A stretch of 12,209 nt of DNA from positions 1-12,209 of the forward strand of contig JAHWKV010000007.1 in assembly GCA_019347725.1 (NCBI GenBank). Direction: 5' to 3'. The translations under genes and the position numbers were made by a program. The notes below the pieces were generated by a model. The model had not been told where the DNA came from and ran no database searches. It saw nothing but the letters and a program-made list of their open reading frames with translations. Shown one piece after another: positions 9,001-12,209 of this stretch. The stretch comes from Actinomycetota bacterium (GTDB lineage: Bacteria; Actinomycetota; CADDZG01; JAHWKV01). Numbering within the stretch: position 1 is the stretch's first letter; every line of letters begins with the position of its first letter.

Positions 9001-9250
9001 GCTCGCCCGCGACGTAGTCAGGCACATCCAACAACTGCGGAAGGAAAGCGGCCTCAACATTCAAGACCACATCGAGACTGCATACCAAACCGACGACGCG
9101 CAGCTGAGCAAGGCCATCTCCGAGTGGTGTGGATACATCCGAGGAGAGACGCAATCCACGACCTTGCACGAAGGGACGCTGGATCAGGAACCCCGAGGTG
9201 TAGAGCTGGGTAAGGCGAAGCTCAGCCTGGAGTTGCGTAAGGTTGGGTAA
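6080..9250 (+). CDS. ileS: Isoleucyl-tRNA synthetase, IleRS2-type with GVHH signature
   Basis: 1056 aa, the length of IleRS2-type enzymes. It charges tRNA-Ile with isoleucine and edits mischarged valine. The catalytic signature normally HxGH reads GVHH (55-58) within MGVHHAWGRTYKDVFQRF. The CP1 editing domain shows LVWTTTPWTLAAN (221-233) and GTGVVHIAPG (320-329) followed by the acidic pair E333-D334. Cys pairs C182/C185, C467/C470 and C515/C518 look metal-binding. The KMSKS loop reads EMHYS-KGNSI (605-614), with Tyr608 where Lys is usual. The anticodon-binding domain begins near 695, and the tail lacks the C-terminal zinc finger of IleRS1. The TTG start is forced by an in-frame TAA at 6071-6073 and gives the expected MFE-type N-terminus; AGGGG lies 11 bases upstream. 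The stop overlaps malQ by 8 bases. The gene is intact, and the identity as IleRS is firm. Confidence 0.95.
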   Translation: MFEQVPSRPGLVAGEKAVLKLWDEQNTFEKLRAKTRGKPRWSFLDGPITANGFMGVHHAWGRTYKDVFQRFFAMAGHDLRWQQGFDCQGLWVEVQVERDLGFTSKRDIEQYGIENFIARCKERVYKYSDIQTRQSIRLGMWSDWPNSYFTMSDENNYTIWSFLKRCHERGLIYKGLDAMPWCPRCGTGISEQERKEGYKTVTDRAVYVRFPLKGRAGEHLLVWTTTPWTLAANVAAAVNPDLTYLKVRQGDDVYYLSEGCAGVLKSETKRLGKPEVLVKITGADMVGWQYSGPFDLLEAAEQAVAHHKVIEWEEVSDSSGTGVVHIAPGCGKEDFDLGKKLDLPIVMPIDEAGIYGEGFGELTGKSASDVADEVTESLKHSGLLYKAEGYEHDYPHWWRCSTPLLFRAVDEWYIDMGWRDEIKDNVRKIRWIPDYGEDLELDWLTNMGDWMISKKRYWGLALPIFECAGCGWFDVIGGLDELKARAVSGWEEFEGDPNNPNTPHRPWIDSVRIGCGKCGESAIRIPDVGNPWLDAGIVPYSTVRYNTDHEYWAEWIPADFVVESFPGHFRNWFYALLTMSTMMEDIPPFKTLLGYALVRDEKGEEMHYSKGNSIQFDEAADRMSADVMRWMYCRHNPTKNLNFGYGHGEQLERKVFGTWWNSYLFFCNYAILDDFDPEQTFIPVADRPEIDRWIISNLQLLVDGANRHFNDYAVGPFVRQAEEFIEELSNWYIRRNRQRFWDPVGAEATDKLAAYQTLYEVLTTLTKLLAPVIPFLTERMYENLRRPSDPESVHLCDYPRAVPELIDEQLSFQMSVAQQVSSSARALRERLDLRVRQPLAQLRVAAPEESQRNALERLREVILDELNVKSLTVDSSLDDLTRLELKPQFKALGPKHGPDANKVAQAIRQASHEQAAQIDSGQSTMLVVDGDSVEVTPEDAGVVTLQAQGWEVGLAGDIQVALDTRLTDELLREGLARDVVRHIQQLRKESGLNIQDHIETAYQTDDAQLSKAISEWCGYIRGETQSTTLHEGTLDQEPRGVELGKAKLSLELRKVG

Positions 9251-10961
9251 CCTTCGGGCTCGCGCAGCCGCGTGCGGGATCGAACCCGGCTACCACGACT
9301 ACACGGGCGAGTGGCAACCGGCGCCCGACAAGACGCTTCAACTTTTAGTAGACGCACTGGAGCCGGAGATCGGATCCCTGCCTGCACTGGACGAGCCGTG
9401 GACTGCGGCCGGTGCCCAACGCTGCTACCCGCCTCCCAGTCGCAGGCTGTGGGGATGGTCGCTGCAGCTGTACGCTTTGCGCTCCGCAACCAGCTGGGGC
9501 ATGGGGGATCTGAGCGATCTCAGAGTCTTCGGCGAGCGCGCGCGCCGGGAACAGGGCACCGACACCCTTATGGTAAATCCAATCGGCGCAAGCACTCCCG
9601 GAGCCGGCATGCAGCCGAGCCCATACTTTCCAGGCAGCCGCATCTTTCGCAACCCCGTGTACCTGGGCATCGACGACCTGGCCGGTTCCAGCGCAGCGGT
9701 CGATACACTGCGTCCCGCCGCTCGGCGGATGAACTCCAGCGACCGGATCGATCGCGACGCGGTGTGGGCGTTGAAGCGCCCGGCACTCAAGGCGTTGTTC
9801 GACGATTTCGAAGGCAGCGGATCCTTCGATCGCTACCGCGCCCAGGAAGGGCCGCCTCTTAAGGACTACTCGACCTTCAGCGCCATTGCCGAATGGCACG
9901 GCGCCGATTGGAGAACCTGGCCCGATGAGCTGAGCACTCCCAACGCATCCGGAATCGAGTCGTTCCGCCGGGATCATGAGGAGGACGTGGAGTTCCACAG
10001 CTACCTGCAGTGGCTGATCGATGAGCAGCTTGCCGAGGCCGCCGGTGTTACGGGGCTTATCAAAGATCTGCCGGTAGGCGTCGACCCCGCAGGCGCCGAC
10101 GCCTGGGTTTTCCGGGGAGCCTTCGCTGAGGGCTTCCACGTCGGCGCCCCTCCCGACGACTTCAACCGCCGCGGGCAGGACTGGGGCGCCGCACCGTTTC
10201 ACCCTGCCCGCCTGGCTGCTATGCATTATGAGCCGTACATCCGAACTATCCGTGCCGCGTTCAAGCATGCCGCGGGCCTGAGGGTCGATCACGTGATGGG
10301 ACTGTTTCGACTGTTCTGGATCCCCCATGGGTGCGACCCAACCGAAGGTACCTACGTCCGGTATCCGGTCGGCGCGCTACTGGACCTGCTCGCCGCCGAG
10401 AGCCAGCAGGCCCGGGCGTTCGTCGTCGGCGAAGACCTCGGCACCGTAGAAGATGGTGTACGAGAGGCGCTCCGGGCCCGGGACATCCTGTCCTACCGGC
10501 TGCTGATCTTTGAGCCTTCCGCCGATTCCATCCCGGCCCAGTCGATGGCAGCCGTGAGCACCCACGACTTACCCACCATCGCAGGAGTTTGGACCGGGTC
10601 GGACTTGGAAGACCAAAGGCGGGCCGGGGTTCTCCCCGTCCCGGAGCTGTTGGAGGAGATGCGGCAGCGCCTCGCAGCCGCCTCCGGGTGCGAGCAGGAC
10701 GCCGCGGTGCCTGAGGTTGTGCAGCGGGCGTATTCGAGCTTGGCGGCCACCGAGGCGCGCATCGTCACGGTGACTCCGGAGGACGCCCTGGGGGAAACAC
10801 GCCGCCCGAACATGCCCGGCACCATCGAAACCTGGCCCAACTGGTGCCTCCCACTGCCGGCGACCCTCGAGGAGTTTTTCGACTCCGCGCGGGTCCAGCA
10901 GCTGGCCGGGGCCCTCAGAGATCTGGGCCGTGGCCCAGCAGGATCAGCGAACGTGCGGTGA
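9243..10961 (+). CDS. malQ: 4-alpha-glucanotransferase (amylomaltase, GH77)
   Basis: 572 aa cytoplasmic enzyme that transfers alpha-1,4-glucan segments between maltodextrins. Its length lies between the short Thermus type (about 500) and the longer E. coli/actinobacterial type (about 690-720), because the N-terminal extra domain is short (about 1-70). GH77 marks in order: YALRSATSWGMGDL (77-90), QPSPYFPGSRIFRNPVY (124-140), a DLPVGVDPAGADAW loop (near 275-290), nucleophile Asp349 in RVDHVMG, acid/base Glu397 in VVGEDLG, and His441-Asp442 in STHDLPT. The start is TTG 9243-9245, overlapping the ileS stop by 8 bases, with GGAG (9229-9232) 10 bases upstream; the N-terminus (LRARAAACGIEPGYHDYTG) matches the family. 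Its 3' end overlaps the convergent debranching gene by 47 bases. With GlgX it would recycle glycogen branches to phosphorylase substrates. Confidence 0.94.
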   Translation: MGNLRARAAACGIEPGYHDYTGEWQPAPDKTLQLLVDALEPEIGSLPALDEPWTAAGAQRCYPPPSRRLWGWSLQLYALRSATSWGMGDLSDLRVFGERARREQGTDTLMVNPIGASTPGAGMQPSPYFPGSRIFRNPVYLGIDDLAGSSAAVDTLRPAARRMNSSDRIDRDAVWALKRPALKALFDDFEGSGSFDRYRAQEGPPLKDYSTFSAIAEWHGADWRTWPDELSTPNASGIESFRRDHEEDVEFHSYLQWLIDEQLAEAAGVTGLIKDLPVGVDPAGADAWVFRGAFAEGFHVGAPPDDFNRRGQDWGAAPFHPARLAAMHYEPYIRTIRAAFKHAAGLRVDHVMGLFRLFWIPHGCDPTEGTYVRYPVGALLDLLAAESQQARAFVVGEDLGTVEDGVREALRARDILSYRLLIFEPSADSIPAQSMAAVSTHDLPTIAGVWTGSDLEDQRRAGVLPVPELLEEMRQRLAAASGCEQDAAVPEVVQRAYSSLAATEARIVTVTPEDALGETRRPNMPGTIETWPNWCLPLPATLEEFFDSARVQQLAGALRDLGRGPAGSANVR

Positions 10962-12015
10962 GGTTGAGACCCTGGCGCCGGCGCATCCTGGTTCCGGGGC
11001 GAGCGGTGTTGATGAGCTCCCGCCACCGGCCGGGATCGCCGGGCTCCGGCAGAGCGAAGTACGTCGAGCGGGCTCCGGAGTTGATCAGCAGCAGCAGCGT
11101 ATCGCCGCCAATCCTTTGACCGGTGGCGTCAACCTCATCGGCGCTCCCGGCCGGCATGAGCATTCCCAGCACATGATTGTCGACATCCTCCCAGTCCTGA
11201 GCCTGCATGGAAGACCCGTCGGGCCGTAGCCATACAACGGAAGGCACTTCGGTCTCCTTACCGCTGCTGGGCATGAAGTATCGGCGGCGACGTAGCACCG
11301 GGTGCTTCTTGAGGATCTGCATAGCCTGCACGGTAAAGTCCAGAAGCTGTTGCTGCGAGGGCGACAGGTCCCAGCTTATCCAGCTGATCTCGTTGTCCTG
11401 ACAGTAAGCGTTGTTGTTGCCCCCTTGGGTCCTCCCCATCTCGTCGCCGGCGACGATCATGGGCACACCCTGAGAGAAAAGCAGGGTCGACGTCAGGTTG
11501 CGAAGCATGCGGCTCCGCATGCGGCCGACTCGCTCGTTGTCGGTAGGGCCCTCTTCACCCCAGTTGCGACTAAGACTATTGCCCGTCCCGTCGCTATTGT
11601 TCTCCAGGTTGGCCTCATTGTGTTTGCGCGAGTACGAAACCAAATCCGCCAGCGTGAAACCGTCGTGGGAAGTTATGAAGTTGATGCTGGCCCTAGGCCC
11701 CCGCCCGCTATGCTCGAAAATATCCGATGAGCCCGATAGCCGGGACGCCAACTCCGGGACCTGACCCTTATCCCCTCTCCAGTAACGACGAATGCAGTCC
11801 CGGTAGCGGTCGTTCCACTCGCTCCAGTCCACAGGAAAATTACCCACCTGGTAGCCGTCCTCACCAAGGTCCCACGGCTCGGCTATCAGCTTCACCCCCT
11901 GCAGGACCGGGTCCTGCTGCACCACCTTGAAGAAAGCTGCTCTGGGATCGAACCAGTGGTTGTCCCGGCCCAGCACCGGAGCTAGATCAAATCGAAAGCC
12001 GTCGACATGCATCTC
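10915..12015 (-). CDS. glgX: Glycogen debranching enzyme GlgX/TreX, C-terminal part, 5' end replaced
   Basis: About 366 residues of a GH13_11 debranching enzyme that cleaves alpha-1,6 branches of glycogen or limit dextrin. The second half of the catalytic barrel is present: MHVDGFRFDLAPVLGRD with nucleophile Asp (11988-11986), KLIAEPWDLG with acid/base Glu (11880-11878), NFITSHDGFTLADLVSY with the third catalytic Asp, and further GlgX marks MIVAGDEMGRTQGGNNNAYCQDN. A C-terminal beta domain follows and ends in a normal way (ARSLILLGHGPDL). Spacings between the three catalytic acids (36 and 72 residues) equal those I recall for E. coli GlgX. The N-terminal CBM48 domain and first half of the barrel, about 330 residues, are absent: upstream of 12015 the frame continues into a different protein family. 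The gene as given cannot make a working GlgX; the cause is probably assembly. It converges with malQ and overlaps it. Confidence 0.88.
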   Translation of the reverse strand, partial: EMHVDGFRFDLAPVLGRDNHWFDPRAAFFKVVQQDPVLQGVKLIAEPWDLGEDGYQVGNFPVDWSEWNDRYRDCIRRYWRGDKGQVPELASRLSGSSDIFEHSGRGPRASINFITSHDGFTLADLVSYSRKHNEANLENNSDGTGNSLSRNWGEEGPTDNERVGRMRSRMLRNLTSTLLFSQGVPMIVAGDEMGRTQGGNNNAYCQDNEISWISWDLSPSQQQLLDFTVQAMQILKKHPVLRRRRYFMPSSGKETEVPSVVWLRPDGSSMQAQDWEDVDNHVLGMLMPAGSADEVDATGQRIGGDTLLLLINSGARSTYFALPEPGDPGRWRELINTARPGTRMRRRQGLNLTARSLILLGHGPDL

Positions 12016-12209
12016 GGCATAGGTCTGGCCGTTGGCCTGGACCGGGAACATGACCGGCGGGAAGGCGCCGGGGATTGCCGCGGAGGCGATCATGATCTTC
12101 TTTATGAGCTCGCGCTTCGTCGGGTAGCTCGAGGCGGCGATGGCGCCGATGTCCCAGATCACCGGGCGCTGGGCGTCGAGATAGGTCGTGCCGATCCAGA
12201 GCCGGCGGC
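11998..12209 (-). CDS. Patatin-like phospholipase fragment fused in frame to GlgX
   Basis: The frame upstream of the GlgX part reads RRLWIGTTYLDAQRPVIWDI, GAIAASSYPTKRELIKKIM and IASAAIPGAFPPVMFPV, then YAEMHVDG. This is the mid to C-terminal stretch of the patatin-like phospholipase (acyl hydrolase) fold: the GTT.LD.QRPVIWD strand, the I.ASAAIPGAFPPV loop and the EMHVDG(G) motif that carries the catalytic Asp of the Ser-Asp dyad. The Ser (GxSxG) half would lie beyond the window. The second Gly of the DGG motif is replaced by the Phe of the GlgX DGFRFD motif, so the join falls on the six residues both families share (12015-11998). Third codon positions here are mostly G or C, more so than in the glgX part, which hints at a different source genome. 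The family is assigned from memory of its motifs. Confidence 0.75.

Follow-up and report, generated by a model that had tools for sequence, protein, structure and literature searches.

The window analysed in this study corresponds to the complete contig C324 (12,209 bases), which comes from a source genome of 1.6 Mb (346 contigs, 64.19% completeness). The features located towards its end are listed in Table 1. On the minus strand, a single open frame of 430 aa begins at the contig end and extends from 12207 to 10915 with no internal stop. Residues 1–70 of this frame are patatin-like and residues 64–430 correspond to GlgX, with both similarities overlapping in the motif EMHVDG. The first-pass annotation had described one uninterrupted frame passing from patatin into GlgX on this strand, and both the frame and its coordinates were confirmed. 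Among the closest homologues, the patatin P0003 aligns to positions 12207–11998 and the GlgX protein P0122 to positions 12018–10918; the true breakpoint lies in the bases encoding EMHVDG or within a few bases of them. A distance of 195–212 bases separates the join from the contig end, where the patatin piece is cut off. Whether the contig terminates near this point had been raised as a question, and C324 does stop at 12209. Additionally, malQ and glgX were observed to converge, overlapping at their 3' ends by 47 bases (10915–10961).

Table 1. Positions in the window of the features at and near the join
Feature	Position	Strand	Evidence
malQ (4-alpha-glucanotransferase), convergent to glgX	9243..10961	+	572-aa ORF; homologues of 92% and 75% identity
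glgX 3' half including the stop codon, on the side that looks native	10915..11997	-	95% identity to full-length P0122; TIGR02100, E 2.6e-140
Join, 18 bases encoding EMHVDG, a word common to both families	11998..12015	-	Matches to both families overlap
Patatin-like phospholipase gene fragment, probably foreign	12016..12207	-	91% identity to P0003 (70 aa); GC3 0.94 vs 0.76–0.80
End of contig C324	12209		Contig of 12,209 bases

The patatin piece also differs in composition from the rest of the contig, with a GC3 of 0.94 versus 0.76–0.80 in five other coding stretches. Among 64-codon windows, 4 of the 2,811 that overlap and none of the 46 that do not overlap are as GC3-rich as the piece. This control omits the part of an RluD-like frame, the initial codons of which overlap lspA; when this part is included, the range is 0.69–0.80 and the count is 4 of 2,902 windows.

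The GlgX half and its malQ neighbourhood

The NCBIfam profile TIGR02100 (glgX_debranch) matched residues 64–424 of the frame (E 2.6e-140), corresponding to profile positions 331–686 of 688. The score of 468.7 bits, obtained with the C-terminal half only, falls below the curated cut-off of 640.9 bits. The GlgX piece was 95% identical to residues 328–694 of P0122, an intact GlgX of 694 aa, and 85% identical to P0123, an intact 700-aa GlgX labelled Actinomycetota. After the EMHVDG join, the glgX part begins at residue 335 of P0122. In its fit to the profile and to an intact relative, the window frame resembles the TIGR02100 family, but its N-terminal half is replaced by unrelated sequence running into the contig end. 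Outside its own genome, the best GlgX matches among the genomes searched were found in four genomes of the same family (62–64% identity). In all 19 of the aligned GlgX loci of relatives (L006–L024), P0122 was matched from residue 1–3 to residue 651–691.

A convergent malQ was identified near a full-length GlgX in three of the five same-family loci (L007, L008 and L009). The two genes adjoin in L009 and are 1.2–1.4 kb apart in L007 and L008, while no malQ was detected at E 1e-10 within the 1.5 kb flank of glgX in L006 and L015. The malQ homologues showed identities of 92% and 75%, the latter being P0243. This protein and the GlgX P0123, in each case the closest relative that carries a name, are each encoded on an Actinomycetota-labelled contig of 136,557 bases, presumably the same one. 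The GlgX half looks native to the contig.

Within the window's genome, which is 64% complete, P0122 matched the window and, weakly (37%), contig C117. The latter match (L003/L026, G000 contig C117:3290–3607) falls in an open frame of 429 aa and corresponds to residues 232–343 of P0122, the middle of GlgX. The C117 frame is perhaps another GH13 enzyme and not the missing GlgX half.

The patatin piece and its relatives

The patatin piece was 91% identical over 70 aa to residues 210–279 of P0003, an intact patatin of 426 aa, and the part that precedes EMHVDG (12016–12207) corresponds to residues 210–273. Among the best 120 of 6605 matches, P0003 is the closest patatin by identity, and all 120 contain the Patatin domain (PF01734). 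Searched directly, the Pfam Patatin profile gave a weak match to residues 30–70 of the 430-aa frame (E 0.036, 14.7 bits) and to the 64-aa piece alone (E 0.0095, 16.6 bits), both below the gathering score of 27.7 bits. The piece is thus identified as patatin through its homologues and not through the Pfam profile score. It also lacks the GxSxG serine region of PF01734 members: the GISVG stretch is located at residues 131–135 of P0003, and the window piece starts later, at residue 210, so that in the window patatin this region would fall beyond the contig end. The likeness to patatin-like phospholipases extends over residues 1–70 of the frame; what would follow EMHVDG is missing, and what precedes residue 210 of P0003 would fall outside the contig.

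The distribution of P0003-type patatins was very sparse among the phylum genomes searched. P0003 was matched by 3 of 396 phylum genomes, namely the window's own and two with weak partial matches (28% and 30% identity; E 5.6e-4 and 7.9e-4), and this type is nearly absent among the 395 other genomes. Within the window's own, incomplete genome, P0003 matched the window alone. Two other frames with a patatin domain were identified in this genome, on contigs C90 and C20, and neither matched P0003 at E 0.001. Patatins as such are therefore not foreign to the genome; it is the P0003 kind that is out of place. A native patatin of the P0003 kind was considered and rejected, given the two weak matches among 395 phylum genomes and the dissimilarity of the C90 and C20 frames to P0003.

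An organism is given in the name of 6 of the 120 patatin matches (best 120 of 6605), comprising five Pseudomonadota and one Phycisphaerales. In a scan of genome contigs (alignment A3), the best 80 of 551 loci were mostly proteobacterial by title, together with Planctomycetota and a few others. None of these 80 loci was titled Actinomycetota, and none exceeded 48% identity. When genome contigs were scanned with P0003 alone, a relative was confirmed in none of the 23 stretches. Based on these more distant, named matches, the source organism of the patatin piece is probably proteobacterial.

Two further observations were made among the patatin relatives. L029, the locus that matched best in the patatin scan, is titled Oceanobacillus amid mostly proteobacterial loci and may be mislabelled or contaminated. 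P0002, a protein of 608 aa from a JGI contig of 98,045 bases, contains two tandem patatin-type stretches, each with EMHVDGG, and sequence that looks out of frame behind each of them; these are possibly adjacent patatin genes with frameshifts.

The shared word and the origin of the join

EMHVDG belongs to the active site of both enzyme families, containing the catalytic Asp in patatins and forming conserved region II in GH13 enzymes. It was present in 102 of the 120 patatins listed and in 76 of the 120 GlgX proteins listed. The first-pass annotation had attributed the longer form EMHVDGG to patatins. This form does occur in other patatins, but the closest ones aligned by identity (P0003–P0006) read EMHVDGS. 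On the GlgX side, the closest protein, P0122, reads THMHVDG, with H in place of E. Owing to these variants, the stretch of DNA that the true parents may have in common could differ somewhat from 18 bases in either direction. Of 114 loci that were fetched, five contain the exact 18-mer, and each of these is a copy of the window's own contig. The best relatives of the patatin and of the GlgX side differ from it at a single base (17 of 18 identical), so that the true parents may, but need not, share the word. In de Bruijn assembly, the smallest k is usually 21, and two sequences can be joined only where they have a word of roughly k bases in common. Since 18 bases is less than this k, a few flanking bases would have to match too, unless the chimeric molecule was already present in the library. 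The reading frame is retained over the join, which counts against a chimera, although an in-frame shared motif would give this automatically.

Taken together, it is highly probable that the apparent fusion is an assembly (or library) chimera of two unrelated genes from different bacteria near a contig end. Each half has its own intact close homologues, the composition breaks, the word at the join is frequent in patatins and GlgX proteins alike, and the contig ends close by. The two sides would come from different source organisms, because the GlgX half is nearest to an Actinomycetota-labelled protein and, among the genomes searched, to those of the same family, P0003-type patatins are nearly absent from the phylum genomes searched, and GC3 breaks between the two sides. 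Searching the two halves separately had been proposed as a check, and it returned separate intact homologues, Actinomycetota-like for GlgX and of a type almost absent from the phylum genomes searched for the patatin. The contig of an uncultured, probably actinomycetote bacterium would be correct over malQ and over the 3' half of glgX. The switch would then take place at EMHVDG, made by the assembler or through a chimeric fragment in the library, and lead into a patatin gene from a second member of the sample, probably a proteobacterium, which may have nearly identical bases at this position; the contig would stop about 200 bases past the switch. A switch in the de Bruijn graph, instead of a chimeric library molecule, is the route that we infer. 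The fused protein would not be expected in the organism.

The same patatin–GlgX architecture was not observed in independent genomes among the matches listed. In a protein search, the best 120 of 8000 scored proteins reached a query coverage of at most 85%, and none spanned the join. In two overlapping sets of 61 and 396 genomes, none of the matches listed outside the window's own genome started before residue 62. Most of these matches began at residues 62–65, and partial ones began later. Of the 396 phylum genomes, 146 matched, and among the matches listed from genomes other than the window's own the earliest start was at residue 63 or later. The best 10 of 526 plasmid records likewise matched from residue 64 or 65, and none spanned the join. 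In a DNA search of 41 genomes, four short matches (28–52 bases) were found outside the window's own genome.

A different reading of the continuous open frame is that a real illegitimate recombination through microhomology occurred in the strain, with foreign DNA replacing the 5' half of glgX by a patatin part and leaving a fused, probably inactive gene. The lack of another close GlgX copy in the genome would fit such an event, though this genome is just 64% complete. However, with the join about 200 bases from the contig end, there is no longer foreign stretch to support an insertion, the join appears in no relative among the matches listed, and the GlgX half is stop-free and 95% identical to an intact gene, so nothing points to decay. 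Such a recombination is very unlikely, and we give similarly little credence to a living strain in which inter-phylum recombination at the active-site word of patatins and GH13 enzymes has produced an in-frame hybrid gene. The first-pass annotation had also preferred an assembly chimera over microhomology recombination, a preference supported here by the contig end, the separate homologues, the taxonomy, the GC3 values and the lack of a spanning match among those listed. A natural, functional family of patatin–GlgX fusion proteins, with which the frame open over the join would agree, is scarcely credible and was rejected, as no homologue among the matches listed spans the join and neither half is complete in the visible sequence, the patatin starting from P0003 residue 210 and GlgX from profile position 331 of 688.

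The assembly or library chimera is consistent with what is described for metagenome assemblies in PMC8172020, according to which k-mer graphs may hold paths without a counterpart in any real genome, and chimeric sequences in mock-community tests were always located at contig ends. As in those cases, DNA of two organisms appears to be joined at the end of a contig. The mock-community example given in that paper, however, involves genomes that closely resemble each other, those of Salmonella and Escherichia, whereas the window appears to join distant-looking organisms through one conserved word.

The patatin–GlgX frame is probably not a new protein and adds nothing new on biology. It is a clear case of how, at the end of a contig, unrelated enzyme families with a common conserved word can be linked in frame and enter databases as a seemingly credible new fusion. 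Frames of this kind at contig ends need to be screened before fusions are claimed.
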